Below are positions 3,799 to 27,795 of a stretch of 27,795 bases of DNA, piece after piece; position 1 is the stretch's first letter, and each line of letters begins with the position of its first letter. The stretch comes from a virus: positions 1 through 27,795 of IMG/VR virus record IMGVR_UViG_3300044675_005774; one strand, given 5' to 3'. The notes under the pieces were generated by a model. The model was given only the letters and a program-made list of their open reading frames with translations. It had not been told where the DNA came from and made no database searches. A program made the position numbers and the translations under genes.

Positions 3799-5177
3799 TG
3801 GCGATCAATTTCCTGCAATCCCTGCTTGGGCAGCAACAGGCGCCGCCGATCCCAGCGTATTCGATGCCGCAGCAGGCGCAGCCGCGCCCGTTGCCTTCGA
3901 GCAATATCGCGGCCAAAATGAGCGGCCCGCAGGGAGGCAACGTCCTGCAAATGGCACAGGAGCCCACGCCGAATGCACCTGCCCAAGCACCAGCCGGTGA
4001 AGCGCCTCGCAAGCGCCGCTCGCTGCTCGATACCATCGGCGGCATTTCGGACGTTATCGCGCGCGTCGGCGGTGCGGAAGCCATGTATCAGCCGACCTTG
4101 GATGCGAGGCAGGACCGCGCGCAGCAAATCGACCTCGACGCGCTGCGTAAACAAATCCTTGAGCAGCAGGCCACCGTAGGCGGGCAGTCGATCGAGGCGA
4201 ACGAAGTCGGAGCCGCAGACAGTATGCGCGCCCGTGCGGCGCAGGCTCTTGGCGCGCTTGCGGGCAATCCCAACGCCGCGGCTATGTGGCCTCAGATCGC
4301 GCAGCAGGCGGGCCTTGATGAGCAAAGCACCGCCACGCTCGGCAACATGATCCAAGCCGATCCGAACAATGTCGGCACGCTCGCGCAGGCTCTCGGCTAT
4401 GCCGCGCCCAAGCAAGGTTCGCAGGCGAAGGAATTGCAGGTTTACAGCTTGCTCCAAGAGCAGGATCCCGAACTTGCGAACACCTATTTGCGCAGCATCG
4501 CCAATCCCGACAGCCTCACGCCGTATGATCGTGCGCGGCTCGAAATCAGCATGGCGGAATTCGGGCTGAAGCAGAGTGAAGCGGAATTTAATCGCGGGAT
4601 TACCGAGCGCGAAACCGAATTGAAGGAAGATAAGGCAGCGGGCGGCGTCGGTGCGGATCTCACGCCGACTCAGCGCGGCAACGTCGTGCAGAAATTGGCG
4701 CTGCTTCCCAACGTCCGCGAGCAGTATGAGCGCGTCCGCACGCTCTACGACGAAATGATCGAGGAAGGCACGCTTGCGCGTGGTGGCCTCGGCGGGCTTG
4801 TGCCCGGAGCACTTGCAGGCGGAAAAGCCGAAGCCTTCGACAAAGCAGCCGGTGCGCTCCGGAAGTCCATCCTCTCGCTGACGCGCATCCCAGGCGTCGG
4901 CTCCATGTCCAATTATGAAACGATTCTCGACGAGCAAGCATTGCCGAGCCGTTGGGGATCGGATGAAGGCCGGCTGGAAGCGCTCAACGGCATCGGGACC
5001 GTGCTGGACAGCTACGAGCAAGGCTATAAGGAAATGCTCGGCAATCCCCGCCCCGCATCGCGTCCCGCTGCACCTCGCCGTCCTGCGGCTGGCGCAGCCC
5101 CTCGCCGTCCAGCGGCTCCCCGTCGCAGCGTATCACCGGCCGCAGCCGAAGCCCGCCGTCGGGGGTTGATTGACTGA
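3798..5177 (+). CDS. Ejection (internal virion) protein, P22 gp20-like position
   Basis: The protein has 459 residues, close to P22 gp20 (about 471), and lies between the gp7-like and gp16-like genes with one-base stop/start overlaps on both sides. The N-terminus is Gln/Pro-rich (LLGQQQAPPIP, PQQAQPRPLP). The middle is long, Ala/Gln/Glu-rich helix (residues about 110-300) that could form coiled coils. A glycine-proline loop LTRIPGVGSMSNYE sits near residue 370. The tail from residue 418 on is a basic Pro/Ala/Arg tract with repeated PRRPAA units that could contact DNA. No enzyme motif is seen. The function is inferred from gene order, size and composition. Confidence 0.65.
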   Translation: MAINFLQSLLGQQQAPPIPAYSMPQQAQPRPLPSSNIAAKMSGPQGGNVLQMAQEPTPNAPAQAPAGEAPRKRRSLLDTIGGISDVIARVGGAEAMYQPTLDARQDRAQQIDLDALRKQILEQQATVGGQSIEANEVGAADSMRARAAQALGALAGNPNAAAMWPQIAQQAGLDEQSTATLGNMIQADPNNVGTLAQALGYAAPKQGSQAKELQVYSLLQEQDPELANTYLRSIANPDSLTPYDRARLEISMAEFGLKQSEAEFNRGITERETELKEDKAAGGVGADLTPTQRGNVVQKLALLPNVREQYERVRTLYDEMIEEGTLARGGLGGLVPGALAGGKAEAFDKAAGALRKSILSLTRIPGVGSMSNYETILDEQALPSRWGSDEGRLEALNGIGTVLDSYEQGYKEMLGNPRPASRPAAPRRPAAGAAPRRPAAPRRSVSPAAAEARRRGLID

Positions 5178-7843
5178 TGGCAAAGAAGTCCGACCCCAAG
5201 GAACTCGCGCGCACCTATGAGACGTTGCGGCAGTCTGTCGTTGCGCGAGTCAAAGATCCGAAGCAGCGGCAGCAGGCTCTTGCGCGGTTCGATAGCGATC
5301 CCCGCGCGCAGAAATTGCGCCGTGCGGCTGGCCTCGCATCTGTCACCACGCGGCAGCGCGACGTGCGTGATGTTGCCCGCGCCAATGTCGCGCAAGAGGG
5401 TAAGGCCAAAAGGCCGGCAGGCAAGAATTTTGCGGATGCTATGATTGCTGGCACTTCCGAAGCCATGTTCGGCATTCCCGAACGTCTGGAAGCTGCCGGC
5501 CGATATTTTCTGCCGGAAACGTCCAAAGACAAGCGCAAGGGGACGCTACGCCGCGGTCAGTCCTATGACGAGACGCTGGAATTGGTGCGTGCCGAAAATG
5601 AAGAACGCAAAAAGCTAAGTCTCGCGGGCAACATCACCGGACAAATCGGCGGATCGATCGCGGGTGGCTTGGGTGCAGCGCGAGCAGTCACGGCAACCGG
5701 CGCCCGTCTTGCTGCATCGGCAACGCCTGCGGCCGCTCGGGCGGGCAACGTGCTCCAGAAGGTCGAGCGCGCCGCCACTTTGCAGCGCGGGCAGACTGCT
5801 CGCAATGCTGCTCGACTCGTCGGGACGGGTGCGGCGGCTGGCGCGGCTCAGGCAGCGGGCGAAGGCTCCGATATCGGCGAAGGTGCCGCTTTTGGTGCGG
5901 GGGGCGGTGCCGCTCTCGGCGTAGCAGGTAAGGTTGCCCCGTGGCTTGGCGGCAAAGCTTCCGAAGTTTTCCGCATGTCTGGCGCCGACGCAATTTTCCG
6001 GCGCTACACAAAAACAACGCGCGAAGCTTTGGAAGCCCGCGCAGCCGACTTCCGCAAGCGCACCGGCACCGAGCCGACGATTTACGAATTGCTCGACCTC
6101 GAAGATCGCAAGTCATTGCAGGACGTATTCCAGCGCCTCGACAAGCCCCAACAGGAGCGCGGCGCGACGATGGCCCGCGAGCGCGTCGAAGCCATTCCTG
6201 GCGAAGTCGCTCAGGTGGTCCGCAACGAGACACGCGGCCAGCGGAAGCGGAATATCGCATCCTTGGCTTCCGCGTTGCCTGAATCGCGCGGCGGGCAGGC
6301 AGCGACGACCGCCGAAGCCCGTCTTGCTGTCGGCGCTGCGGAAAACCCGACGAGGCTCGCGCAGCTTCGCCGGCAGGAAGCCCGCAACACTATGGCGCCG
6401 TTCGACGATCAGCGCCCCGTCGACAATGTTGGCGAATTGGTGCCGACCGAATTGCGCGCGACCAATCCGGACAAGCCTGGGGAAATTTCGGAAGTCGAGA
6501 TTGATCCCGAATTGTCGAGCGTCATCCGTGCAGCCGCAGGGCTCGCGAAGATCCGGCCGAACGATCAGGGCATCACGGTTCGCGAGATCACCGACATGAT
6601 TTCGCGGCTCAAGGAAGCTGCGGCAGGCAAGGGCAGCGTCATCGAGCAGGGCGCAGCACAGCGCGCGGCCGACCATCTGGAAAGTGTGCTCGCCGAGAAA
6701 ATCCCCGACCTCGCTCCGGCTCTCGCCCGCATGAACGAGAATTGGGCTGCTCGATCGCGCCAGATCGAAGGGATGGCCGAAATCCGTCCGCAGGCAGACG
6801 TAAACCCGAATTCGATGCGCAATCTGCGCCGGTCCGAAAACGTGTTCGAAACGCCGGAAGGCGGCGTAGGCCGTGCGATGGGTCAGCGGGGCGCGCTGAT
6901 CGACGATCTCGGGGCGGCGACAAGTCCCGCTCTCGGCACGGTCCGCACGCTCGCCGAGAGCCCCACGGCAGCGCGCCAGATCGCGCAGAATATCGGCGTG
7001 CCGGCAACGCGCAACATCACCGACGCCGCTGCGGCTCAGAGCGAAAGCGCCCGCCGCCTCGCAACTGCGGTGCGCGATCCGAGTTTCGACGCCTCGGAAA
7101 TCGAAGCTGGCGACCTTGCACTGCTCGCGGCCGCGCTTAACCCTGCCTCAATGGCCTACACCAAGGCCAACGCGATCGCCCGCGTCTATCAGCGCCTCGC
7201 CAAGTCGATCCCCGAAAGCCAGTCGCGAACCATCGTCGACATGCTGTTTTCGCGCGATCCAACCATGACCCAGCGCGCGATCAATGCGCTGCGCTCGCAG
7301 GGCGACGAAGGCGGCAAGGTGCTGCAAGAGATCGTCGCGATGGCGGGCATGGCATCGGCTGGGGACAGCGAGGCTCCCGAAGCTGAAGTTGAAATGGCAG
7401 CGGCGGCGGAAACTCCCCAGGCCGAAGCCGATTACAGCCAAATGTCGGACGAAGAATTGATGGCAGCGCTGGAAGCCGAAGAAGCCGAAACCGCCGAAGC
7501 CGACTACAGCCAAATGTCGGACGAAGAATTGATGGCAGCGCTGGAAGCCGAAAAGGAAATGGAGCCTTACGGGCGGCGTGTGATCCAAGACTTGTTCCCC
7601 GACGCACAAATCACCGACGACTTGCGGGATCCGAACAGCGACTTGGGCAAGAAAAATCCGAGCAGCTACCATGTGGGCACAGATGGCGCAGTAGATATTC
7701 GCCCGATCCCGGGCATGACGTTTGACGAATTCGTGAACGCTGTCAAAGCCGAAGGGTATGATGTGGTCGAAGCCATCGACGAAACCGGAAAAGGTCGCTC
7801 GAAGCACGCCACTGGTCCCCACTGGCATATTGTGATCGGATGA
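5177..7843 (+). CDS. Large ejection protein with C-terminal M15-like peptidase domain
   Basis: The protein has 888 residues, the third and largest of the ejection block (gp16 position, though P22 gp16 is about 609 aa). Residues 1-140 are charged helix. Residues 150-185 and 235-257 are Gly/Ala-rich (GQIGGSIAGGLGAARA, AAFGAGGGAALGVAGKV), typical of membrane-active internal virion proteins. Residues 260-740 are mostly helix. Two copies of a 20-residue acidic repeat occur at 749-768 and 773-792. The C-terminal ~70 residues carry SYHVGTDGAVD (H832, D840) and HWHI (H882, H884). This is the SxHxxGxAxD...HxH zinc-ligand pattern of M15-type peptidoglycan peptidases. It probably cuts or loosens the cell wall during genome entry. 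Confidence 0.7.
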   Translation: MAKKSDPKELARTYETLRQSVVARVKDPKQRQQALARFDSDPRAQKLRRAAGLASVTTRQRDVRDVARANVAQEGKAKRPAGKNFADAMIAGTSEAMFGIPERLEAAGRYFLPETSKDKRKGTLRRGQSYDETLELVRAENEERKKLSLAGNITGQIGGSIAGGLGAARAVTATGARLAASATPAAARAGNVLQKVERAATLQRGQTARNAARLVGTGAAAGAAQAAGEGSDIGEGAAFGAGGGAALGVAGKVAPWLGGKASEVFRMSGADAIFRRYTKTTREALEARAADFRKRTGTEPTIYELLDLEDRKSLQDVFQRLDKPQQERGATMARERVEAIPGEVAQVVRNETRGQRKRNIASLASALPESRGGQAATTAEARLAVGAAENPTRLAQLRRQEARNTMAPFDDQRPVDNVGELVPTELRATNPDKPGEISEVEIDPELSSVIRAAAGLAKIRPNDQGITVREITDMISRLKEAAAGKGSVIEQGAAQRAADHLESVLAEKIPDLAPALARMNENWAARSRQIEGMAEIRPQADVNPNSMRNLRRSENVFETPEGGVGRAMGQRGALIDDLGAATSPALGTVRTLAESPTAARQIAQNIGVPATRNITDAAAAQSESARRLATAVRDPSFDASEIEAGDLALLAAALNPASMAYTKANAIARVYQRLAKSIPESQSRTIVDMLFSRDPTMTQRAINALRSQGDEGGKVLQEIVAMAGMASAGDSEAPEAEVEMAAAAETPQAEADYSQMSDEELMAALEAEEAETAEADYSQMSDEELMAALEAEKEMEPYGRRVIQDLFPDAQITDDLRDPNSDLGKKNPSSYHVGTDGAVDIRPIPGMTFDEFVNAVKAEGYDVVEAIDETGKGRSKHATGPHWHIVIG
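7421..7552 (+). repeat. Tandem in-frame repeat, two 60-bp copies, 72-bp period
   Basis: Copies at 7421-7480 and 7493-7552 match at 59 of 60 bases; the single change is silent (GAT/GAC). Each encodes AEADYSQMSDEELMAALEAE and they are separated by four residues (EAET). Near-identity at the DNA level points to a recent duplication. It lies in the acidic linker before the peptidase-like domain. Confidence 0.95.
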
Positions 7844-16184: not shown

Positions 16185-16631
16185 TCAAAGGTCTGTGCGA
16201 GCGAACTCGCCATGATATTTCAAAGCAGCTTCGTTATAAGCATCCGCGGCTTCTAGAGCGGTGTTGAAGCTGCCGAGAAATTTGTTTTTACCGTCGACGG
16301 ATATCAATGCTTGCCACCGTTTGCGGTGCTTGTGGTAAGAGACACCTTTATGTCCAGAAGTGTTGCTGCTCGTCCGATTTCGGTTAAGTTGGTTTTCAGA
16401 AAAATTGGCAAGCCTCAAATTTTTGATGCGATTATCACTCTTATTACCGTTGATATGGTCGATTAACCCATCGGGCCAAGAGCCATAATGCAGAAACCAA
16501 GCAACACGATGTGCAAGGTGATGCTTCTTCTGGAATTGGACATAGATATATCCGCGCCCGTCGGAACTGCCTGCTTCCCTCCAGAGTTTTCCAGTTTCAG
16601 GATCATAGCGCATTTCTCGATTCTCGGGCAT
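16185..16631 (-). CDS. HNH homing endonuclease with AP2 DNA-binding domain
   Basis: The protein has 148 residues. The HNH_3-type motif is LAHRVAWFLHYG (H41) then LIDHINGNKSDNRIKNLRLA (D58-H59, N61, N67). The C-terminal AP2-like domain is SGHKGVSYHKHRKRWQALI followed by FLGSFNTALEAADAYNEAA. This is the standard free-standing phage homing endonuclease. It nicks or cuts DNA at a target site and spreads by copying itself. Its start lies 29 bases inside the 3' end of the SNF2 gene, and its stop is 13 bases before the next start. GC content is about 44 % by hand count over sampled lines, lower than the neighbours, a sign of transfer. Confidence 0.92.
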   Translation of the reverse strand: MPENREMRYDPETGKLWREAGSSDGRGYIYVQFQKKHHLAHRVAWFLHYGSWPDGLIDHINGNKSDNRIKNLRLANFSENQLNRNRTSSNTSGHKGVSYHKHRKRWQALISVDGKNKFLGSFNTALEAADAYNEAALKYHGEFARTDL

Positions 16632-19215: not shown

Positions 19216-19857
19216 TCATAGGTCGTATTCTGTGACATTGACCGATCGTGCCATGCTGATCAGCACGTCCTGAAATTCTTTCGGTGTGTGAATTCGCGGG
19301 CTGCTATCCACTCCACCGCCCTTGCTGCAAACTTCACCCAGCTTCTTGGCGCGCTTCAAGCCGATGCGCGCAATCAGTTCAGGGTCGGGCTCCCATGAAC
19401 GCTTGCCCCAACGCAATTCAGGCAGATCGCAGCGATAGGCGAGTAGCATAGTAGGCTTGCGAGCATAGTGGCCGTATTGCCCTTGCTCGACACAGCACGT
19501 CCAGCCGCCTAGATCATCGGCCTTAATCCAGCCGCCTTCGCGCGGAGGCACAGACAACCCAAAATGCGGCCACGCATGGCTTTGCCAAGGATGCTCCAGA
19601 ACACCTCCCCACAACCTTACACTTTCGAGCGCGCCCTTAAAGCATCCGCCGTCGTCGCCCTTCACTTTACGCAAGCCCGTCTTGGCGACTACCCCGGGTG
19701 AACCAAACCACATTTTACCCCACCGCTGGCAAGGCGGATGCGCAACCACAGGCCAAGGGCCGCGATACTTGAGAGCGTCACGAGGCTCGTCCCAAGGATC
19801 AACACCTTCCAAGCCAAAATAGGCGCCGCCTGTGCGGACATAAAGCGCAGCAATCAT
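19216..19857 (-). CDS. DNA cytosine methyltransferase-like protein (compact)
   Basis: The protein has 213 residues. Motifs resemble a shortened m5C methyltransferase: YFGLEGVDPWDE (14-24) where the SAM-binding loop would be, VAHPPCQRW (38-46) like the PC catalytic motif IV, GVLEHPWQSHAWP (85-97) like the ENV motif, and EQGQYGHYARKPT (124-136) like the QxRxR/KPT part. The usual FxGxG loop is not clear and there is no target-recognition domain of normal length. It may be a reduced or relocated methyltransferase, or a relative lacking activity. It ends TEYDL. Overlaps both neighbours. Confidence 0.55.
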   Translation of the reverse strand: MIAALYVRTGGAYFGLEGVDPWDEPRDALKYRGPWPVVAHPPCQRWGKMWFGSPGVVAKTGLRKVKGDDGGCFKGALESVRLWGGVLEHPWQSHAWPHFGLSVPPREGGWIKADDLGGWTCCVEQGQYGHYARKPTMLLAYRCDLPELRWGKRSWEPDPELIARIGLKRAKKLGEVCSKGGGVDSSPRIHTPKEFQDVLISMARSVNVTEYDL

Positions 19858-21737
19858 AGATCATACTCCCGCTTCGGAATTGCCCACTTGCCTGCGCTCG
19901 GCCGAAGGAATGTCAGCGCTTCATTCTTTGCCAACTGCTTGCGCACCTGATCCCGATCAACACCGGTTGCGCCCGAAATCTCCTGCGCCAGCACGCTTTC
20001 GCTTGTCTCGCCGCCAAGGCTCTCCAACACCTTCAGGACTTCTTCAACGCTCGCCCATGCAAACCGGCTAGATTGCAGCTTGCTCGGAGACATATCGGCG
20101 AGCGCGGCCGTCCTCTCCAGCACGATTGACGAGCCCACTTCCTTGACTGCAAAATAGCTGACTTCTTCCGATACGTCAGCATCCTTTTGCTTGCGCACTC
20201 GCAATTCTGTCCCGCCCTGCTTCAGCTTCACCGATAGGACTGCATCCATGTTGCTGTAGAAGGCGCTGGAGCCGCGGGCGCCCTTTGATTGATCCTTGCC
20301 AGTGTGATGCACGGCGAGCACAAAGCACTCATAATAGCGGGCAAGCTGCTCCATGAAACTCGTGATCATGGTCGCATCCTTGGCGCTGTTTTCATCCATG
20401 CCGGTAATCAGGCGCGTGAGCGTATCAATCACAATCAGGCTAGGCTTGGCCTTCAACTCGGCGAGGTCCGCTTTCACATTCTCCCAGCCATCGGAGTCGC
20501 TGTACAAGGGCACCCGATCCTTGATCATGAACCTGTGACCATCGCGCGCTTCGATCCCCTGCCACTCCATCCAGGCCGGCCAACGCTTTTTCGCGGTCGC
20601 AACCGGACCTTCGCCGGCAAAGAACAGCACATCATTCTTGACGGGCGGCGCGCTCCATTGTCCGGGAATACCGAAAGCCAATGACAGCGACATATCAAGC
20701 GCGAGGAATGACTTGTAGCTGCCGCTCTCCCCGTAAATCATCCCGATCCCTTGCGCTGGTAGCATGTTAGGAATCAACCAGACAGGATCATTCACATTGT
20801 CCGCGTAGTCGTGCAGGAATTTGATCTTGTCGCGGGCGCGGTCGACAGGCGCAGCCGGTTCGAATTCCTGCCCGACAAACGAGGCGAAAGCATCTTCGTT
20901 CGCCTGAAATCCCTTCACCCCGCCTTCTGTGTCCTCTCCATAGCTGGCGGCGTTGCGGATGATCTGTTCCAACTCCCAATCATCCCACGGCGGCGAGCAA
21001 TGGGGATTCCAGTGCTGCCAAAGAAGATCAAAGCAGGTTCCGGCCGAAATGGCTTTGTCAAGTATCGAAGCCGCGACTTGAAAGGCGGTGTTATTGCCGC
21101 CGCGCCCTTCAACCGACACGCGCCCGCTAGTCACATAGCCTTTCAGCAAATCCGTGGCCCATTGGACGTTGCGCGGCTGATCTGCATCGGGGTTTTTGTT
21201 AAGCCCTAGGGTATCCGTTTTCTTGCGCTCAGGCACAATCGCCGCGACAGCTTGAGGCAAGGGCAGGATCGCGCCGCCAGGCAGCGCGCTATAGGTTCCG
21301 GCCGACGTTCGGGACCCAGGCAACAAGACATAGCCGCCCGATACAATCTTGCCATCGCGCCGGATCCCGCCGCGCGTATCGATGCCATCTGCAATGCGGC
21401 TGGCAGTGCTCGGCCCTTCACCCTTGAAATAGACATGCAAGCCGCCCCGCGGCGTCCGCACCTGAAAGGCTTTGCCGACAGCATCACGGATCGCGCCATC
21501 TCGCTCCAGCAGCTTGTGCCACCAGTCGAGGCCGTTCGGATCCACATCGATTACAAACAGGCCGCTAGGTCCGGTCGCAACAGCCCAATTGAATTCAGGA
21601 TTAACGCGCCGCCATTCGGCAAGTTGTGCCGGATCATCGGTTGCGATATGCCAGCCCTCACGCGTGGCGGGCTCCTTGCCACCTACAACGCAGGGAAAAA
21701 GCTTGCAGCCTCTCAAAATGTCCGGTAAATCTTGCAC
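19854..21737 (-). CDS. Primase-polymerase fused to RecA/AAA-type helicase
   Basis: With the GTG at 21737 the protein has 627 residues; a TTG at 21791 would add 18, but that frame runs through a perfect hairpin and has a poor ribosome site, whereas AGGGA precedes the GTG. Numbering is from the GTG. The N-terminal prim-pol region has PATREGWHIATDD, LFVIDVDPNG (D64, D66) and TPRGGLHVYF (H101). The C-terminal ATPase has Walker A GESGSYKS (336-343), LIVIDTL (D438) and AVHHTGKD (about 475-482). This pairing makes primers and unwinds DNA at the fork. It ends REYDL, and a winged-helix-like stretch EISGATGVDRDQVRKQL precedes the end. Confidence 0.9.
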   Translation of the reverse strand: MQDLPDILRGCKLFPCVVGGKEPATREGWHIATDDPAQLAEWRRVNPEFNWAVATGPSGLFVIDVDPNGLDWWHKLLERDGAIRDAVGKAFQVRTPRGGLHVYFKGEGPSTASRIADGIDTRGGIRRDGKIVSGGYVLLPGSRTSAGTYSALPGGAILPLPQAVAAIVPERKKTDTLGLNKNPDADQPRNVQWATDLLKGYVTSGRVSVEGRGGNNTAFQVAASILDKAISAGTCFDLLWQHWNPHCSPPWDDWELEQIIRNAASYGEDTEGGVKGFQANEDAFASFVGQEFEPAAPVDRARDKIKFLHDYADNVNDPVWLIPNMLPAQGIGMIYGESGSYKSFLALDMSLSLAFGIPGQWSAPPVKNDVLFFAGEGPVATAKKRWPAWMEWQGIEARDGHRFMIKDRVPLYSDSDGWENVKADLAELKAKPSLIVIDTLTRLITGMDENSAKDATMITSFMEQLARYYECFVLAVHHTGKDQSKGARGSSAFYSNMDAVLSVKLKQGGTELRVRKQKDADVSEEVSYFAVKEVGSSIVLERTAALADMSPSKLQSSRFAWASVEEVLKVLESLGGETSESVLAQEISGATGVDRDQVRKQLAKNEALTFLRPSAGKWAIPKREYDL

Positions 21738-21772
21738 CGCTGTCCCTGTCCCGATAGCGTTACCGCCAGGAT

Positions 21773-21812
21773 AGAGCCGGAAGCCCGCCAAGGTTTCCGG
21801 CTCTTTTCTTTT
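21773..21812 (+). terminator. Intrinsic terminator facing rightward, inside the leftward operon
   Basis: AGAGCCGGAA (21773-21782) and TTCCGGCTCT (21795-21804) form a perfect 10-bp stem around a 12-base loop, followed on the plus strand by TTTTCTTTT. Read leftward, the stem is followed by no T run. It therefore stops plus-strand transcription. No rightward gene is seen here, so the RNA stopped would be antisense to the primase gene. It also lies in the leader of the primase-polymerase gene. Confidence 0.7.
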
Positions 21813-21889
21813 GCTTAGTCAATCAACCGCTTCCGATCGCTTCAGCGTGAGCCCTCAGACATACCCCAAGGGCAAGCATTCTGGCAAGG

Positions 21890-22261
21890 TCACAAATCGT
21901 AATCAAGCCAGCGGGGCGAATCCAGCATCGCTTCTAGCCGATCCTTGGCGTCAACAGGCTCCGTGCCGTTCGGCCAGGTCATGCCATCCGATGCGGCGTG
22001 GATCATCATTTCGATTTCATCGAGCAAATCGAGCCGATCAACAATATGCTCAACTTGGCGCCAGCGGTCGAGGCGCACAACCTCTTTCAGCTTGCTAGGC
22101 AAATGCCGATCAAGCGCATTAAAGGTGTCGTCAACCGTGGCTGAAGCTAGTTGCAGATCCTCTTGGTCGTCTAACAGATCGATCAATTCAGGGATGAATT
22201 CGCAATCGCTGACAAGCCTTTGGGCTTCAAGCCACTCTCTCGCGTTTAGGTGTTTGTGCAT
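21890..22261 (-). CDS. Acidic helical hypothetical protein ending in DYDL (123 aa)
   Basis: The protein has 123 residues, very acidic (Asp/Glu) and helical: IPELIDLLDDQEDLQLASATVDDTFNALDRHLP, then RLDLLDEIEMMIHAASDG. No family is recognised. It starts where the upstream stop overlaps its ATG (TGATG). Acidity and small size resemble DNA-mimic or anti-host early proteins, but this is only a general likeness. It ends LDYDL. Confidence 0.6.
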   Translation of the reverse strand: MHKHLNAREWLEAQRLVSDCEFIPELIDLLDDQEDLQLASATVDDTFNALDRHLPSKLKEVVRLDRWRQVEHIVDRLDLLDEIEMMIHAASDGMTWPNGTEPVDAKDRLEAMLDSPRWLDYDL

Positions 22262-22470
22262 CAGCTTACGTCCTTTTCATCATATTCGCCGCAGCGCGTG
22301 CAAACAAGCCCGATGCAGCCGCCGCTAGAAGTGCCGTCGCGCTGCCAATCATGGGCGCAAGGCTCTTGCTCCATTACAGGGGCGCCGCCGTCGAATGGGT
22401 GAAACCACTTCGAGCCGTCCGACATTGTCAGACGTTCGCCGCCCGTCACCGTTTCGCTTTTGGAGATCAT
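22261..22470 (-). CDS. Small zinc-ribbon-like protein (69 aa)
   Basis: The protein has 69 residues with a possible zinc site C38, H40, C52, C57, C60 (CAHDW, GLVCTRCGEYDE). The first half, including KWFHPFDGGAP, is without clear motif. Overlaps both neighbours by 1-4 bases. Function unknown; single zinc ribbons are common among phage early proteins. Confidence 0.6.
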   Translation of the reverse strand: MISKSETVTGGERLTMSDGSKWFHPFDGGAPVMEQEPCAHDWQRDGTSSGGCIGLVCTRCGEYDEKDVS

Positions 22471-22715
22471 GGCACCACCTCCAGGCCGCTTTCAGCTACG
22501 GGGCACCAGTAGCAATCAAAGTCGAGATAAATGTGCCTTCCATATTTGAAAAGCAGACCGTCGCCTTTGCAAAAGCCGATGATCTTATGAGGCCCGAAGG
22601 TCACTCCATAATTGTTGGTATAGAGCACCTTTTGCCCCAGCTTGACCTTGCAGTTAGGGGCGACAGGTTCCTTGCCGATCGCGGCAATCACCTGTTTTAG
22701 CGTTCGAATGCTCAT
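22467..22715 (-). CDS. Hypothetical small phage protein (82 aa)
   Basis: The chosen ATG at 22715 overlaps the upstream TGA (ATGA); the frame extends further to 22748. The protein starts with a helix (IRTLKQVIAAIGKEP) and continues with strand-rich sequence containing GQKVLYTNNYGVTFGPHKIIGFCKG and RHIYLDFDCYWCPV. The style matches small phage proteins with an SH3-like barrel, but I cannot name it. Two Cys in the last part (CYWC) could bind metal. Confidence 0.6.
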   Translation of the reverse strand: MSIRTLKQVIAAIGKEPVAPNCKVKLGQKVLYTNNYGVTFGPHKIIGFCKGDGLLFKYGRHIYLDFDCYWCPVAESGLEVVP

Positions 22716-23191
22716 GCCGCCGCGCTCCCTTCTTCGCGCTTGAACCACTCCAGCCGCGGACCATCAGGCAAGGCCGCGATCTTCTCGGCTGTGATCCAGG
22801 TTTCGCGGTTCGACATATCGACAGAGGCGCCGTAATAGCGCGCCTCCCCGAGATCAAAGTCGATCCTGACAAATTGGCTTGTGATAGTGCCGGCCGTATA
22901 TTCGCACATAAAAAAGCCAAGGGCGCCGACGCGATGCATAGGCGGCAGACAATTTAACATTTGATAATAAAAATCTTCCGTGATTTCCTGCAAGCGGAAT
23001 TCATCGAGATAGGCTTGCATTGCGCGCTTGTCGAATTCCTCCCACGTCTCGACAACGTAGGGTTTGCCGCGCTCCAGCATCAGCTTGTCGGCCGCTTGCT
23101 CGGCGAGATCGCGAGTCTTGTAGTAATTCCACATTGATTGCGCGCCAGGTTCGCAAACCACGAATTGCACATCAGAAATTGAAAGCGTCAT
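22712..23191 (-). CDS. DUF1419-like phage protein (159 aa)
   Basis: The protein has 159 residues; AGAGGA lies 8 bases before the ATG. Residues about 70-113 (ITEDFYYQMLNCLPPMHRVG, FFMCEYTAGTITSQFVRI) resemble the DUF1419 family, found in phages and plasmids of alphaproteobacteria. The first part is helical (TRDLAEQAADKLMLERG). No enzyme motif. DUF1419 has no known function. The family call is by pattern memory and is moderate. Confidence 0.5.
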   Translation of the reverse strand: MTLSISDVQFVVCEPGAQSMWNYYKTRDLAEQAADKLMLERGKPYVVETWEEFDKRAMQAYLDEFRLQEITEDFYYQMLNCLPPMHRVGALGFFMCEYTAGTITSQFVRIDFDLGEARYYGASVDMSNRETWITAEKIAALPDGPRLEWFKREEGSAAA

Positions 23192-23203
23192 TTTGAATTC
23201 CTC

Positions 23204-23335
23204 TCAATTATCTAGGGATACGTAGTATCTCCAGGCGCCGCCGCGCGATTGTTTCCTGAACAGTTTCGAATTGGCAAAACCGCCTAGGTTATACCATTCG
23301 ACTTTTGTTATCCTCTTTTTTCGTTCGCGTTGCAT
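23204..23335 (-). CDS. 43-residue basic protein
   Basis: A short gene with a full AAGGAGG ribosome site seven bases before the ATG, the best one seen in the window. The protein is basic at the start (RERKKRITKVEW), then YNLGGFANSKLFRKQSRGG and ends WRYYVSLDN. The W-Y-x-x-GG-x-x-N-x-x-L-x-R-K pattern resembles small proteins in many phages, of unknown function. It begins 3 bases after the upstream stop and ends 12 bases before the next start. Confidence 0.7.
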   Translation of the reverse strand: MQRERKKRITKVEWYNLGGFANSKLFRKQSRGGAWRYYVSLDN

Positions 23336-23337
23336 GA

Positions 23338-23562
23338 TCAAGCCTCCTTAATAAACCTATGCGGCCGCTCAGGGTGCCAAGTGACACGCTCGCGCGCCGT
23401 GTGGGGGTTTGAGATATCCTTGCAGGATCCCGCGCACGGTTCGGCCCACACAGTCCCGCTATGGTTCGTTGTGATGGTCTTTTGTGTGCCGCAGCCCTTA
23501 CAGGCATAGACGCGCGCCGCGACTTTCGGAGTCCAGTCGGGCAAGTCTGCGTTGTGATGCAT
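23338..23562 (-). CDS. Small zinc-binding-like protein (74 aa)
   Basis: The protein has 74 residues with four cysteines in two pairs: C21-x2-C24 (YACKGCGTQ) and C43-x3-C47 (EPCAGSCK). The spacing suits a zinc ribbon. The end is basic (TWHPERPHRFIKEA). Its start overlaps the upstream stop (TAATG). It may bind DNA, but no family is recognised. Confidence 0.6.
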   Translation of the reverse strand: MHHNADLPDWTPKVAARVYACKGCGTQKTITTNHSGTVWAEPCAGSCKDISNPHTARERVTWHPERPHRFIKEA

Positions 23563-24020
23563 TAGAAATCCCTTCCCTGAATTTCCGGACCGTTGCCACC
23601 TGACTGCCAGGGGATATTGCGGAAAGTAAACAGGTGATTTCCTGCGGCATCTTCAGCCCGATAAACAGGCACGCAATGCACTTGATATCGGCCTAGCCGG
23701 TCAAAGCGCACAAGCCGGAATTGATGAATTCGCCCGATCGCCAATTTTTGCCAGCGCAACTGCTTTTCGTAGCGCTTCGACCGCAACAGGGCCAAGCCGG
23801 TTTCCCGCAATTCCCCGCGCACAATCGGGCGCACGTCGTCTAGCGCGTCCTCAATAAGCCCGAGACCGTCAATCCCGACAGCGCAAGCCGTTCGGCCGTT
23901 GCCCCAACCTTGATATTTCCGTTCGCTGGCATTTATCAGCTTGCGCAAACCAATCACGTTTGTGCGCTCAACTACGCCCGCGCGGATCGCGTCCAGGTGC
24001 TTTTGTGCTGTCTTATTCAT
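23562..24020 (-). CDS. Hypothetical phage protein (152 aa)
   Basis: The protein has 152 residues. It begins with helix (AQKHLDAIRAGV), has a Gly-rich middle (YQGWGNGRTACAVGIDGLGLIEDALDD), then strands with many Arg and aromatic residues (QFRLVRFDRLGRYQVHCVPVYRA, LFTFRNIPWQ). I recognise no family. Overlaps both neighbours by 1-4 bases, which supports it as a real gene. Confidence 0.6.
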   Translation of the reverse strand: MNKTAQKHLDAIRAGVVERTNVIGLRKLINASERKYQGWGNGRTACAVGIDGLGLIEDALDDVRPIVRGELRETGLALLRSKRYEKQLRWQKLAIGRIHQFRLVRFDRLGRYQVHCVPVYRAEDAAGNHLFTFRNIPWQSGGNGPEIQGRDF

Positions 24021-24262
24021 GCCAGCACCTGTTGTGCTTCTAGCATCAGGACCGCGGCGCCGAGAATGTCGGCCGGCTGCAATTCCATACGGGACAGATC
24101 TCCCGCGCAGATCATGGCTTTAGACGTATCAGAAGCCAAGACGAAAGCAGCATAAGCTTGCTCTCGCACAGTGGTGAAGTGTCCAGGTTTCATTGCGCAA
24201 AGGCGCTTCCAATGCGGCTGCGAATTCTCGCACCAGTTTAGAATGTGTTCGGCATTTGTCAT
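24017..24262 (-). CDS. Hypothetical small protein with repeat-A leader (81 aa)
   Basis: The start is the ATG at 24262, with GGAG in the repeated leader upstream. The protein has 81 residues: MTNAEHILNWCENS, a helix HFTTVREQAYAAFVLASD, and a second helix ADILGAAVLMLEAQQVLA. No family is known. It shares its leader and first codons (ATGACAAA) with the gene that starts at 24904. Confidence 0.6.
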   Translation of the reverse strand: MTNAEHILNWCENSQPHWKRLCAMKPGHFTTVREQAYAAFVLASDTSKAMICAGDLSRMELQPADILGAAVLMLEAQQVLA

Positions 24263-24287
24263 TTTTCGCTCCATCAAAAGCAGGTTA
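24255..24287 (-). repeat. Intercistronic repeat A, copy 1 (33 bp)
   Basis: This copy contains the TAA stop of the upstream gene, a GGAG ribosome site and the ATGACAAA start of the next. The 33 bases are identical to 24897-24929. Confidence 0.9.
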
Positions 24288-24479
24288 CAGGGAATCGTAG
24301 AAGGTTTGGTTTTCTCGCGTTTCGCCAGTCACGTCCACACGTTCGGCATAATACCCGTGCGCGATATAGTTTCGGGCTAGGCGTTGGCTTGCATGATCGC
24401 TGAAAATCATCCCATTGTGTGCAAGCGTCGGCTCTTGTCCGGTTTTCCACTTGCGGACTACATAACGATTTTTATTCAT
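24285..24479 (-). CDS. Hypothetical small protein (64 aa)
   Basis: The ATG at 24479 follows the repeat-A copy 2; GGAG lies in the leader. The protein has 64 residues: MNKNRYVVRKWKTGQEPTL, then HASQRLARNYIAHGYYAERVDVTGE and ends FYDSL. Charged, probably a small alpha/beta fold. No family. Its stop lies in repeat-A copy 1. Confidence 0.55.
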   Translation of the reverse strand: MNKNRYVVRKWKTGQEPTLAHNGMIFSDHASQRLARNYIAHGYYAERVDVTGETRENQTFYDSL

Positions 24480-24487
24480 TTTGCTTT

Positions 24488-24507
24488 GCTCCATCAAAAG
24501 CAGGTTA
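24488..24507 (-). repeat. Intercistronic repeat A, copy 2 (20-bp core)
   Basis: Twenty bases are identical to copies 1 and 3, including TAA and the GGAG site; the downstream 3' part diverges. The TAA is the stop of the gene at 24505-24654. Confidence 0.85.
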
Positions 24508-24654
24508 AGATTCTAGGGACCGACGCGTGAAATTCATCACGAGATCATAGCGGCGCCAAGCTTCCTTGACGTGGATTCCTTGCGCGAGATGCCGAGAAAA
24601 GCGGCGCGATGCCGCGCGGTGGACCTTATGCCAGCGATGCCAATCAAAAGGCAT
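24505..24654 (-). CDS. 49-residue basic protein
   Basis: The ATG at 24654 lies four bases after the upstream stop, with GGAGGG just before. The upstream frame to 24732 would lie within the previous gene. The protein is basic and aromatic: MPFDWHRWHKVHRAASRRFSR, KEAWRRYDLVMNF, ends RRSLES. This looks like a small DNA- or RNA-binding protein, without family match. Confidence 0.5.
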   Translation of the reverse strand: MPFDWHRWHKVHRAASRRFSRHLAQGIHVKEAWRRYDLVMNFTRRSLES

Positions 24655-24658
24655 GGCC

Positions 24659-24904
24659 TCATCCCTCCCCGCAAAAAGAGGCAAGAGCCTTTGCCGTATA
24701 AGGTCCGGTAAAACCGGCGCCGTGGATTGCATTCATCCAGCAATCGCCTTCCAGCTTCAGCTTGCCAGCGCAAGCCTTGCGCGCAGCATCAGCACCCATT
24801 GCAAGGCCGCGCTCGCTTACAGTATCGCCGCGGCGCGCCCATTCATAAGTTGCCTTCATGCCTTCAACATAAAGGGAAACAATCTTGTCAGTCTGGTTTG
24901 TCAT
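24659..24904 (-). CDS. Hypothetical small protein with repeat-A leader (81 aa)
   Basis: The ATG at 24904 is preceded by repeat A copy 3 (GGAG). The protein has 81 residues: MTNQTDKIVSLYVEGMKATYEWARRG, then AMGADAARKACAGKLKLEGDC and ends FTGPYTAKALASFCGEG. It has three cysteines. It has the same start context as the gene at 24262 but no clear sequence similarity beyond MTN. Confidence 0.55.
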   Translation of the reverse strand: MTNQTDKIVSLYVEGMKATYEWARRGDTVSERGLAMGADAARKACAGKLKLEGDCWMNAIHGAGFTGPYTAKALASFCGEG

Positions 24905-24929
24905 TTTTCGCTCCATCAAAAGCAGGTTA
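24897..24929 (-). repeat. Intercistronic repeat A, copy 3 (33 bp)
   Basis: Identical to copy 1. The TAA inside is not the stop of the upstream gene here; that gene stops at 24949. Confidence 0.9.
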
Positions 24930-24948
24930 AACTAAAGCTTACCTAGCG

Positions 24949-25530
24949 TCACAAATTCCATGACGCAAGAGGAAAATTCGGGCGGGCATACAAGGAAAAT
25001 TTTCTCCCTGATCGCGCGTCATAATGCCACCAGCCGGAAAATTCTGGCGCCTTCCTGCACCGCATTAGAGCGCGCGGAATTCTTGGCACGTCAAAATGCC
25101 TTGCCTTTGCTGGCACGCCTAGCAACAGTCTAGCTGCAATCCAGGCATGGCTAACAGCCTCTCCGGACTCCGGCAATGCGCCTTTAATCCAGCCGACAAG
25201 CGCGCTAACGGCTTCAGGATCGCCGCGCGCGGCATCACTTAACAAAGCGACAATCTCCCTAGGCGCGGCACCTGCTTTGGCGTCTCCGATTGCCTCTAGC
25301 TGATCCTGTACCTTGCCAGCATGGCGCCCTAATTCCAGTAGCGCACTAGGGCTCTCAACTAGGCTCACAAGATGCATTGCAGTTAGCGGTTGCCCTTTGA
25401 TCATCATTTGCCTGATCGCGGCCGCTATCTCGGATCCTGAATCATCCAGGCGCAAGACTCCCCGCGCGTGCATCGCTTTCGCCTTTCTTGCGCTGATCCT
25501 GAATTCGTCACAAAATTCTGCTAGATTCAT
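24949..25530 (-). CDS. Phage protein with N-terminal helix-turn-helix (193 aa)
   Basis: The protein has 193 residues. The first ~30 (LAEFCDEFRISARKAKAMHARGVLRL, here in parts) resemble a MerR/excisionase-type HTH. The middle is helical (AIRQMMIKGQPLTAMHLVSLVE, APREIVALLSDAARGD), and the C-terminus is basic with Trp and aromatic residues (EFSGWWHYDARSGRKFSLYARPN). A DNA-binding regulator is possible. It is coupled to the next gene upstream (ATGA). Family unknown. Confidence 0.6.
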   Translation of the reverse strand: MNLAEFCDEFRISARKAKAMHARGVLRLDDSGSEIAAAIRQMMIKGQPLTAMHLVSLVESPSALLELGRHAGKVQDQLEAIGDAKAGAAPREIVALLSDAARGDPEAVSALVGWIKGALPESGEAVSHAWIAARLLLGVPAKARHFDVPRIPRALMRCRKAPEFSGWWHYDARSGRKFSLYARPNFPLASWNL

Positions 25531-25757
25531 GCCGCGACTCCTTCATAATCATGCCAGATTGCCCGCAAGGCGTCGGCATAGGACAGGCAAGGCGCGCGCT
25601 CGGTTAGCGCTTCCAATTCGTCACGGAATTGTGATGCATCATCGCCTTGAAAAAAGACAGATTGCCCGCTAGGCTTGTGCGCCAGATCATAGGCTAAGCC
25701 GTTGACCCATGACGTGACAACAAATTCTGGCGTGTTATGGATGACTCGAGATTGCAT
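25527..25757 (-). CDS. Hypothetical small phage protein (76 aa)
   Basis: The protein has 76 residues: strands VIHNTPEFVVTSWVNGLAYDL and GQSVFFQGDDASQF, then helix RDELEALTERA and ADALRAIWHDYEG. This alpha/beta pattern is seen in small early phage proteins of unknown function. The start overlaps the upstream stop (TGATG). Confidence 0.6.
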   Translation of the reverse strand: MQSRVIHNTPEFVVTSWVNGLAYDLAHKPSGQSVFFQGDDASQFRDELEALTERAPCLSYADALRAIWHDYEGVAA

Positions 25758-26194
25758 CAGCTTTCCCCTTTGATCGCGCGGAAATTAGCATACACGCCGG
25801 CGCCAGGACCTTGCCAAGCATAAAGCTTCCCGCCAATTCGAGCGCGTCCATAGCGTTGACGATCGCCAGACATAGATCGCCGCTGGCCGACAGTATTCAC
25901 CCAGGCGCGCCCCAAAATGTCGCCAGTCCATACAATCACGGCAAGATTAGCGCCGGCATTATCGGCCGCGCCGCTTTCGAGATAAGCGCTAAATTTTTCT
26001 GGCAGATCGCGCAGAATCTCGAATTGTTCAATCCTTCCGCGCATTGCGTTATCACAAGCGGCATAATCAGGGTGCAAGGCGTCCTCTTTGGATATCACAA
26101 TCCAGCCATTTTTCTGGCGGAATTTTTCCGCATAGGCCATAGCTTTATCGAATATCGCGCGCTCGCGCTGATAATCATTTTCGCTGTAAGACAT
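25757..26194 (-). CDS. Hypothetical phage protein with repeat-B leader (145 aa)
   Basis: The protein has 145 residues. It starts MSYSENDYQRERAIFDKAMAYAEKF (helical) and ends with a Gly/Arg-rich strand region (GDRQRYGRARIGGKLYAWQGPGAG), which I recall from other phage hypotheticals. The leader GAATTGAAAAATGTCTTA matches that of the gene starting at 26518 over 17-18 bases. Function unknown. Confidence 0.6.
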   Translation of the reverse strand: MSYSENDYQRERAIFDKAMAYAEKFRQKNGWIVISKEDALHPDYAACDNAMRGRIEQFEILRDLPEKFSAYLESGAADNAGANLAVIVWTGDILGRAWVNTVGQRRSMSGDRQRYGRARIGGKLYAWQGPGAGVYANFRAIKGES

Positions 26195-26197
26195 TTT

Positions 26198-26518
26198 TCA
26201 ATTCTCCGTTTCAACATAAAGGCGAAAGACAGGATAAAAATCGTCGCCGATATCATCATCAGATTCAGGCCAATCAATCCAACCCAAAACGCGCGCAACT
26301 GTATCGGAGTCGTACCAGGCAATAACCGCTTCGCGCGCGGCGTCATAATCAAACCCGTCGAATCGATCGCACGTTTGAATATCATCGACAAATTGCTGCA
26401 AAATATCATCAGGCGTTGAATCCTTACTGGGATATGCCAGCAATATGAATTCGGATTGATCGCGTAAGCGCTCCATACCCTCGGCGCTATCATCAAATGT
26501 GGTTACTGTATAAGACAT
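26198..26518 (-). CDS. Acidic hypothetical phage protein (106 aa)
   Basis: The protein has 106 residues and is strongly acidic (TFDDSAEGMERLRD, PDDILQQFVDDIQTCD, WPESDDDIGDDFY). It starts MSYTVTT after AGAGGAATTTGAAAA. Such acidic early proteins sometimes bind host factors or mimic DNA, but nothing specific can be claimed. It is the first gene after a 273-bp noncoding stretch. Confidence 0.6.
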   Translation of the reverse strand: MSYTVTTFDDSAEGMERLRDQSEFILLAYPSKDSTPDDILQQFVDDIQTCDRFDGFDYDAAREAVIAWYDSDTVARVLGWIDWPESDDDIGDDFYPVFRLYVETEN

Positions 26519-26791
26519 TTTTCAAATTCCTCTCAAAAGTGGACAAGGCGAACAAGGACTTGTTTGCCTTGTTTAGGCTAAGTGGACAAGGCGAACAAGG
26601 CTTTTTATTTACGCGCGTGCGCGATAGATAGCCGACGCCTTGTGATCGCTTCGCGTCCAGCGCTTGCAGCTTCGCTGCGCGCTTCCCGCTGCGCTCTATA
26701 TGGACACAGAAAAAATTTTAAGCAGGTCTAAATCTCCAAAATTACAAAACAGACAAGCCGGAATTTTCCCGTTCTCTTGGCATTAGGGAAT
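26519..26791. other. Noncoding regulatory or origin-like stretch (273 bp)
   Basis: No ORF of note. It holds two direct repeats of AGTGGACAAGGCGAACAAGG, a GC-rich block with repeated CGCTGCGC (about 26611-26698), and an AT-rich block (AAAAAATTTT near 26709). The mix of repeats, a GC-rich and an AT-rich part could mean a regulatory leader or replication origin; neither is proven. Confidence 0.4.
26538..26600. repeat. Two direct repeats and one inverted copy
   Basis: The 20-base repeat AGTGGACAAGGCGAACAAGG is found at 26538-26557 and 26581-26600. Between them CTTGTTTGCCTTG (26559-26571) is the near-perfect complement of CAAGGCGAACAAG (12 of 13, with a G-T pair). So the middle copy can pair with either side. 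Pairing with the right copy is followed on the plus strand by CTTTTTATTT, a terminator-like tail. Confidence 0.85.
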
Positions 26792-26947
26792 TCACCTGCG
26801 CCCTAATCTCCTAACCCGAACCTTTTCACCATTTGCCTGCAAGAATTTGACACGCTCGCGAACCTTGTCAGCATCCGAGAATTCACCGGCAAATTGCCAA
26901 TAGCGCTCAGCTTCCACATAATAGGACACGCTCCAACGATTATCCAT
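26792..26947 (-). CDS. 51-residue basic protein
   Basis: The ATG at 26947 has GGGAAGG about 9 bases upstream and lies two bases after the preceding stop. The protein starts MDNRWSVSYYVEAERYWQF, has FSDADKVRERVKFLQANGEK and ends basic (VRVRRLGRR). This is a compact strand-helix-strand pattern. The first of the early genes before the 273-bp noncoding stretch. No family is recognised. Confidence 0.65.
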   Translation of the reverse strand: MDNRWSVSYYVEAERYWQFAGEFSDADKVRERVKFLQANGEKVRVRRLGRR

Positions 26948-26949
26948 AA

Positions 26950-27099
26950 TCAATTCCCTTCCCTATCCTGATATCTGCCAGGCAACTGATAGCGATATTG
27001 GCGCCTCAAAATTTCCTGATCCCGCAAATGTCGCCAAGCCGTCAATTCATCGAATCCGAATTGCTCCATAGCTTCGCGGATTTTGTCGGGACTGATCAT
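26950..27099 (-). CDS. 49-residue small phage protein
   Basis: The ATG at 27099 has AGGGA seven bases before and is close to the upstream stop (27102-27104). The protein is helical: SPDKIREAMEQFGFDELTAW, then RHLRDQEILRRQYRYQ. Charged helix suggests binding to nucleic acid or protein. The pattern ...DELTAWRHLRDQEILRR is common in small phage proteins of unknown role. Confidence 0.65.
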   Translation of the reverse strand: MISPDKIREAMEQFGFDELTAWRHLRDQEILRRQYRYQLPGRYQDREGN

Positions 27100-27101
27100 G
27101 A

Positions 27102-27338
27102 TCAATCCCTGTCAAAAAGATAAGCCGAGCGATAAAGCGCTTGGATTTTGCAAAGTCTGCGATAGCGCTTTTCCATATATTCAGGACAGCGCTTAAGCGC
27201 ATAAGTTAAATCGCGAGTCCATGGCGCCCGCGCTGATCCGTCAAATTCCAGAATTTGCATTGCTAAATCCGATAGCCGGTCATGTATAATGTCGACGCGA
27301 TAAATATGGGTTTTGCGATGATTGACGCTAATGCGCAT
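27102..27338 (-). CDS. Hypothetical basic phage protein with repeat-C leader (78 aa)
   Basis: The ATG at 27338 has AAGGA seven bases upstream in a repeated leader. The protein has 78 residues: MRISVNHRKTHIYRVDIIHD, then LSDLAMQILEFDGSARAPW, TRDLTYALKRCPEYMEKRYRRL and a helical end. It is basic. The upstream frame is open as ITTEKEF before the ATG because of the repeat. No family. Confidence 0.6.
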   Translation of the reverse strand: MRISVNHRKTHIYRVDIIHDRLSDLAMQILEFDGSARAPWTRDLTYALKRCPEYMEKRYRRLCKIQALYRSAYLFDRD

Positions 27339-27362
27339 GTTGAATTCCTTTTCCGTTGTGAT
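27336..27362 (-). repeat. Leader repeat C, copy 1 (27 bp)
   Basis: ATCACAACGGAAAAGGAATTCAACATG in the minus strand, given here in words as ribosome site AAAAGGA plus start. It matches 27488-27514 at 26 of 27 bases and directly follows the TAA of the upstream gene. Confidence 0.85.
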
Positions 27363-27490
27363 TAGCGCGGCCACTTAATCCCGTAGCTAGTCTGCGGCGA
27401 TCCGTTGCGCCAGATTGTGCTTTCTGCAAATATCGCGGCCATTGGAAGCCCGTGACGTTCGCAGAATTTTTCCGCATCTGAATAAGTCAT
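27362..27490 (-). CDS. 42-residue small protein, first gene of the leftward operon
   Basis: The ATG at 27490 follows repeat C copy 2. The frame could begin at 27529 (55 residues; GTAAGG upstream), reading IITTEKEFS through the repeat. The short form begins MTYSDAEKFCERHGLPMAAIFAES and ends TSYGIKWPR. A Ser/Thr-rich middle and a helix. The putative promoter lies 115 bp upstream. Unknown function. Confidence 0.55.
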   Translation of the reverse strand: MTYSDAEKFCERHGLPMAAIFAESTIWRNGSPQTSYGIKWPR

Positions 27491-27514
27491 GCTGAATTCC
27501 TTTTCCGTTGTGAT
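27488..27514 (-). repeat. Leader repeat C, copy 2 (27 bp)
   Basis: One base differs from copy 1 (AGC/AAC before the ATG). It holds the AAAAGGA ribosome site for the gene starting at 27490. Confidence 0.85.
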
Positions 27515-27558
27515 GATTCGTTGTCGCATTAAGACCTTACCAAAAGCTTAATTCGGCG

Positions 27559-27577
27559 CAAGGCAATTATCGCCTTG
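27559..27577. repeat. Inverted repeat in leader, CAAGGC/GCCTTG
   Basis: A perfect 6-bp inverted repeat with 7-base centre. Next to it the sequence GCCTTGTTCG (27572-27581) is the complement of the repeat core CGAACAAGGC at 26538-26600, so the same factor could bind both. Confidence 0.5.
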
Positions 27578-27604
27578 TTCGGATTATGTGACGCAAAGGC
27601 ACAT

Positions 27605-27625
27605 ATTATAAAGCATTGCAATGCT
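27605..27625 (-). promoter_or_regulatory. Leftward promoter -10 with palindromic operator-like site
   Basis: A perfect TATAAT lies on the minus strand at 27605-27610. The 14-bp perfect palindrome AGCATTGCAATGCT (27612-27625) sits directly upstream in the spacer between -10 and -35. The -35 region (about 27628-27633) has no good match, which suits an activator- or repressor-controlled early promoter. Transcription would begin near 27598 and read all leftward genes. Confidence 0.55.
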
Positions 27626-27703
27626 GCCAGACGCCAAGGGCTAGTAATTATCACAAAAAGGGGACCCGCCAAGCCGGAAAGCTAGAGAGGGGGGATACCT
27701 TCG

Positions 27704-27735
27704 AGCGCCGGCCAGTCTGGCCAGGTCTAGGCGCT
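27704..27735. repeat. Nested GC-rich inverted repeat
   Basis: AGCGCC (27704-27709) pairs with GGCGCT (27730-27735), and inside it GGCCA pairs with TGGCC around GTC. It could be a strong hairpin or a protein binding site upstream of the promoter. Confidence 0.5.
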
Positions 27736-27795
27736 ATACACGACACACCGGATTTTTTTACTTACCTACCCTTACGTCATATACACTTTCCCGCT

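Follow-up and report, generated by a model that had tools for sequence, protein, structure and literature searches.

The window, meaning the whole stretch of DNA analysed, is a virus record of 27,795 bases. All of the genes in the region described here are on the minus strand (Table 1). Comparison of the window for repeats found a 33 bp block that is identical in copies 1 and 3, its 20 bp core being present again in copy 2. Each of these minus-strand copies has the sequence TAACCTGCTTTTGATGGAGC and then an ATG, and directly precedes the start of a small gene. A 16 bp core with up to 3 mismatches has exactly 3 matches in the window, against a mean of 0.39 in shuffled sequence, and none of 100 shuffles reached 3. 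The repeat and its three-copy core, as described in the original prediction, are borne out by these identities and by the shuffle test.

Table 1. Features of the block-carrying region of the window (SD, Shine-Dalgarno sequence).
Feature	Position	Strand	Remarks
Gene X	24949..25530	-	193 aa; constant gene to the left of the exchange slot; most relatives have a homologue (F2 family)
Leader past the X stop	24930..24948	-	CGYTACGTAA..TTTATCA-like in relatives, with or without a block after it
Block copy 1	24897..24929	-	hairpin 24909-24924, GCTTTTGATGGAGC at 24910-24923
Start signals of block copy 1	SD GGAG 24911-24914; gene A ATG 24902-24904	-	
Gene A	24659..24904	-	81 aa, behind block 1; no clear homologue
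Gene B	24505..24732	-	75 aa (49 aa with the ATG at 24654 as start); not behind a block
Block copy 2	24477..24507	-	core 24488-24507, including the gene B TAA stop; gene C ATG 24477-24479
Gene C	24285..24479	-	64 aa, behind block 2
Block copy 3	24255..24287	-	gene C TAA stop, hairpin 24267-24282, gene D ATG 24260-24262
Gene D	24017..24262	-	81 aa, behind block 3
Gene E	23562..24020	-	152 aa; 4 nt overlap with D; own block in L050 and L105

Read on the minus strand, all three copies run TAA, GGAG, ATG. The ATG is within the block in copies 1 and 3, where the identity covers the first 8 nt of genes A and D, and in copy 2 it is 9 nt past the GGAG. Only genes B (stop at 24505-24507) and C (24285-24287) actually terminate at a block TAA, in agreement with the earlier statement that it ends the upstream gene in two of the three cases. 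The TAA of copy 1 is not the stop of gene X, because X already ends at 24949. The description of every copy as holding a TAA, a GGAG and usually the next ATG suits the window, where the ATG lies outside the core of copy 2. Conservation in the relatives does not extend to the TAA, however: comparison of the leaders shows TCA, CAA and others at its position.

Three copies this close together, within 675 bp, might have been left by recent tandem duplication of one gene. However, the genes behind them are mutually dissimilar, as the original prediction also stated: BLASTP gave an E value of 1.3 for A and D, and no alignment for C and D or for A and C. Tandem duplication as the source of the repeats was ruled out by this lack of similarity and by the wide distribution of the element in the clade, and has almost no chance of being correct. 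The best likeness of gene A is a weak match to L076 (35% over 34 aa), and gene C has no homologue among the clade loci compared. Homologues of gene D carry a block in L006, L011, L054, L075 and L110, and are without one in L058.

Relatives were found through the primase (window 19854-21791), as IMG/VR contigs 69-96% identical and then as more distant ones; this search also gave two genome records, one titled as an Erythrobacter MAG. Among known phage records the primase has matches only below 60% identity, gene X has no match, and window positions 22000-27795 have no nucleotide match. Further stretches were found solely through the conserved small protein G (L097, L099, L102, L104, L109 and L112), L099 and L002 being opposite ends of one contig. 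The 32-locus set omits L004, a near copy of L003, and the same-contig rows L049 (= L110), L085 (= L105), L091 (= L108) and L092 (= L110). All loci cover only part of each genome. Genes were called with our own simple caller, with L057 and L049 corrected by hand.

The block had been suggested as something to be sought in other phages. The exact 20-mer has no match in IMG/VR, from which the window's own record may be excluded, and variant forms are present in the relatives. Degenerate block patterns matched 35 and 17 IMG/VR stretches. Most of these appear to be chance matches, from other phages, often of other G+C and with no nearby start, and only those of the window's clade were retained. A search of Rfam gave one sub-threshold match, away from the blocks. 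No publication describing the motif was recognised in a literature search that covered a minority of the subscription papers.

Across the clade the element is GCTTT-N4-GGAG, with the consensus GCTTTYRANGGAGC, and recurs in the relatives, slightly altered, ahead of many different genes. The strict pattern GCTTTYRANGGAG, in which no start codon is demanded, has 29 matches in 23 loci (391,141 bp, both strands), with 0.2 expected in first-order Markov sequences. Every one of the 29 is on the primase strand, a few nucleotides before an ATG that opens at least 30 codons. The loci found only through gene G added five further matches, all at starts (L097, L099, L102, L104 and L112), with no match in L109. 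When any four-base loop is allowed there are 45 matches in the 32 loci (460,350 bp), all on the primase strand and all preceding the start codon of an ORF of at least 30 codons; the opposite strand of these loci has none. Loops of 3, 5 and 6 nt have 2, 0 and 0 coding-strand matches, none at a start. The spacing from GGAG to the start is most often 8 nt (19 sites), followed by 9 (10), 6 (9), 7 (6) and 3 (1).

Sites are present in 23 of the 32 loci. In the nearer set the motif was not found in L010, L051, L055 and L058, and the copy in L009 is degenerate. A further 19 loci (277,988 bp) have no match, these being the partial near loci L007, L012 and L013 and the distant L059-L074, 16 loci in which the primase is only 27-32% identical. 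The leaders of 297 called genes either match the pattern fully or deviate at two or more positions. All 20 block junctions have intergenic gaps of 22-158 nt, a size partly forced because the block needs room, whereas 125 of the 181 other junctions overlap or lie within 4 nt. The block is a real, clade-specific, start-associated hairpin.

The hairpin has a GCUUU/GGAGC stem around a four-base loop, with the Shine-Dalgarno sequence inside it. The loops of the 45 sites are CAAT (16), CAAC (11), TGAT (6), CAAA (5) and others (7). At 43 distinct sites the outermost pair is CG in 26, UA in 3, AU in 2, GC in 1 and UG in 1, and is unpaired in 10. The 33 paired sites compare with 24.4 expected, a number as high was reached in none of 10,000 shuffles, and four control column pairs have no pairing excess. 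The covariation score is 0.106 against 0.060, and none of 500 shuffles reached the observed score. Sliding the partners by +3 gives a score of 0.074, with 7 double changes against 6 and only 41.9% of cells paired. The second pair from the outside is GU in 6 of the 43 sites and unpaired in 3. The four inner pairs are invariant, which is no evidence for those pairs because the pattern partly demanded them. The conserved unit is a hairpin enclosing the Shine-Dalgarno sequence, supported by compensatory changes of the outer pair.

Folded in isolation, the stems of 27 of the 29 sites have energies of -3.2 to -6.5 kcal/mol. With 80 nt of context, pair probabilities anywhere from near 0 to 1 are obtained, and several hairpins are predicted to lose to alternative folds in longer context (0.18 for window copy 1). 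The same symmetry could also be that of a DNA operator or promoter with the imperfect dyad CGCT-N8-AGCG, as a dimeric DNA-binding protein would likewise preserve it, and the accessible text of PMC11373665 describes putative promoters in the extended start-associated elements of cluster K phages. Yet the GU at the second pair fits RNA better than a DNA palindrome, and all 45 copies share one orientation and the Shine-Dalgarno position before a start. Likewise, sigma-70-like matches in 21700-27795 number 9, not far above what shuffled sequence gives (5.3, sd 2.1). A DNA operator or promoter is therefore a quite improbable reading of the block.

Other hairpins were seen near the primase. The primase leaders of L052, L054, L057 and L055, for example ACTGC-CTTCATGGGA-GCAGT, resemble another Shine-Dalgarno sequence in a hairpin, the stem being different in L057 (CTTGC/GCAAG) and L055 (ACTTC/GAAGT). 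In the window there is a strong hairpin at 21773-21804, just upstream of the coding part of the primase, and hairpins at the same place in L002, L003, L006, L010, L050 and L051; the stem changes and part of the loop is kept. Read from the opposite strand, it has the form of a terminator. Translation of the primase probably begins further downstream than the listed TTG.

Gene X and its following leader could be identified in all 17 loci compared, X of L055 through a weak match. With L099, L102, L108, L110 and L112 added, L108 by its likeness to L055, the junction after X could be compared in 22 phages. A block is present in 16 of them, with a GGAT loop in L102, is degenerate in one (L009) and is absent from five (L003, L010, L051, L055 and L058). 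About 13 families (BLAST, E 1e-3) are represented among the genes that come first behind these 16 blocks. The leader itself, which contains the perfect palindrome CCCTACGTAGGG in L006, is possibly a regulatory site.

The gene order of the window is X-block-A-B-block-C-block-D, that of L006 is X-block-D, and the 44 nt flank of X and block is identical at 37 of 44 positions. L006 continues as X-block-D-120 aa-G, as compared to X-block-57 aa-120 aa-G in L099, where the 120 aa proteins are 91% identical; as read from these sequences, a single gene has been exchanged, in the interval from the block to the following overlapping start. A 272 nt unit of leader, block and MVTI gene, 77% identical, precedes X in L049/L110 and follows it in L091/L108, contigs that are 86-95% identical to each other across long flanking stretches. 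In L110 the MA(K/R)YxVYLP gene and the block belonging to it precede X, and in L102 they follow X directly. L050 has X, a degenerate block and E, with D absent; as a counterexample, its close relative L051 has neither block nor E at that place. In L005 the block is followed by nine codons resembling the start of D, fused to another gene, the relatives of which in L014 and L057 begin at the following methionine or valine. Gene exchange beside the block is well supported by these arrangements.

Gene content was expected to change exactly at the blocks. It does differ between relatives, often exactly there, but the gene after X also varies in the 5 of 22 phages that have no block, therefore the block is not needed for gene turnover. 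At blocks the downstream family is conserved in 5 of 189 comparisons, as against 75 of 493 at other junctions and 19 of 182 at those other junctions that have a gap of more than 4 nt. These comparisons are not independent because X supplies most of the block junctions.

The original prediction also held that such borders could allow small genes to be swapped by homologous recombination. Change of gene content at the blocks agrees with this, and homologous recombination between blocks may have caused some of the exchange, but turnover in the slot proceeds without blocks as well. That the blocks are kept mainly because a short shared sequence permits such swaps is possible, though on balance unlikely. 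It would fit with the variant shared by the three window copies, which is rare elsewhere, with the identity of blocks 1 and 3 reaching 8 nt into both genes, and with the joining in L005 of a D-like start to another gene directly behind the block. A recombination site would, however, have no need of a strict start context, a fixed orientation or stem covariation. Between genomes the blocks are short and differ by several bases, and L050 and L051 differ by a gene together with its degenerate block.

On the variable columns, copies within a genome are more alike (0.65, 18 pairs) than copies between genomes (0.53, 388 pairs; p 0.00045), with p 0.056 when the window is excluded. Blocks before the same downstream gene family are no more alike (0.54, p 0.47). 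The TTTTGAT form is found in the three window copies, in the D blocks of L006 and L075, and at one L102 site before another gene. Because this form is shared by the window copies and D blocks elsewhere, it is possible that the block of D has spread within the window. A second case of like copies within a genome was seen in L105, where three leaders with CTTTAGACGGAG (1944-1966, 3095-3116 and 4973-4995), absent from the other loci, precede different genes, one of them gene G.

The explanation considered reasonably probable is that the block is a start-associated hairpin that provides arriving early genes with an independent start and may help them to be exchanged. It would act as a leader forming the RNA hairpin N-GCUUU / GGAGC-N', with a four-base loop that is mostly YRAN and the Shine-Dalgarno GGAG in the 3' arm, with 6-9 nt, or 3 nt at a single site, between it and the start codon. 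Since most neighbouring early genes overlap or nearly touch, translation can presumably pass from one to the next. The block heads genes that come after an intergenic gap, without a stop-start overlap with the preceding gene, and probably equips an arriving early gene, or a short overlapping run of them, with an initiation site of its own that is moderately structured. The hairpin covering the Shine-Dalgarno sequence is weak and may set the rate of initiation or be read by a factor. Copies before different genes would help exchange; an alternative route would be general recombination in the leader and selection for a working start. A role in translation is suggested by the anatomy of the block, and equal translation of the block-headed genes, as the original prediction proposed, is possible.

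Conservation of the loop and stem reaches far beyond the Shine-Dalgarno sequence, as might be the case if a hypothetical RNA-binding protein or nuclease, of phage or host, read the hairpin and switched the block-headed early genes together. There are parallels in T4, where, in the accessible part of PMC3014915, hairpins sequester Shine-Dalgarno sequences, RegB cuts GGAG in early starts, and the gp43 operator has a UAAC loop, with CAAC obtained in SELEX; the loops here are mostly CAAN. The same text has RNA structure at starts both inhibiting and helping. Against an operator, RegB itself is inhibited by RNA structure, and the likeness of the loops involves a phage that is not related and could be fortuitous. 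A translational operator of this sort is considered unlikely, and so, to the same degree, is its portable form, a self-sequestering Shine-Dalgarno hairpin under one putative phage or host factor. If this were true, any gene landing behind a block would join a co-regulated early set at once, and the phage would possess in the block a socket into which new early genes could be plugged, the fixed leader after X being the main docking site. The slot after gene X is also a place to seek new small early genes in environmental phages.

Other features of the window were noted. A 27 nt repeat (27336-27362 and 27488-27514, 26/27 identical) precedes two early genes and ends in AAGGAATTCA-n-CATG. It was rejected as a second start-linked element, as it contains AGGAATTY, a general ribosome-binding site, for which 35 of 106 coding-strand matches are at starts. 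A 60 nt direct repeat, 98% identical and 72 nt apart, is located at 7421-7552 within an 888 aa ORF. An HNH endonuclease with an AP2 domain adjoins the helicase gene (16185-16631) and is possibly a homing endonuclease.

The PeSL cassettes of T4-like phages are repeated regulatory cassettes that contain an early promoter and a stem-loop terminator, and are a proposed mediator of small-gene shuffling. The block differs from these in being a hairpin at a ribosome-binding site, and promoter-like matches here are little above the shuffle level. Short homology at the borders of phage modules is an old proposal for permitting general recombination (PMC3029335, accessible text); here the border doubles as a start site that is under constraint and fixed in orientation. 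In the accessible part of PMC7302621, Microbacterium cluster EF phages have ten copies of an over-conserved 13 bp motif, 5'-GGGAAAGGACCCC, resembling the start-associated sequences (SAS). Like the block it is at the ribosome-binding position before some starts, yet it differs in sequence and host group and is linked to ESAS-like sequences.

The closest likeness is to the SAS of cluster K mycobacteriophages, 5'-GGGATAGGAGCCC, first described in 2011 and present at 11-19 per genome (PMC3203893), which are also treated in PMC12699233 and PMC11373665. About half of these sites carry an upstream 17 bp inverted repeat, the ESAS, and the role of the SAS is still called unknown (PMC3203893 and PMC11373665). 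In the accessible portions of these papers the SAS, like the block, are short repeats at the Shine-Dalgarno position a few nucleotides before starts, nearly all in one orientation and in the non-structural part only. The genes behind them are of different families and are mostly separated from the preceding gene by a gap, the repeat may include the upstream stop, and an outer dyad surrounds the GGAG. The block is correspondingly at the Shine-Dalgarno position in 45 of 45 sites (6-9 nt from the start in 44 and 3 nt in 1), on the primase strand, and among non-structural genes of the partial loci.

Its consensus GCTTTYRANGGAGC is unrelated to GGGATAGGAGCCC, however, and there are 1-4 copies per partial locus, compared to 11-19 per genome in the cluster K text available. 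The leader 3' of X also differs from the ESAS as a feature. Since the sequence differs, the block is not a member of the SAS by sequence, though it is the same kind of thing. Covariation of the stem and visible gene exchange, both present here, go beyond what is described for the cluster K elements. A clade of uncultured phages with its own version, with covariation and with visible exchange opens two questions to experiment, namely whether initiation is controlled by such hairpins and whether new early genes can be taken up by phages through a shared start. The block is this clade's own version of the start-associated sequences known from some actinobacterial phages.
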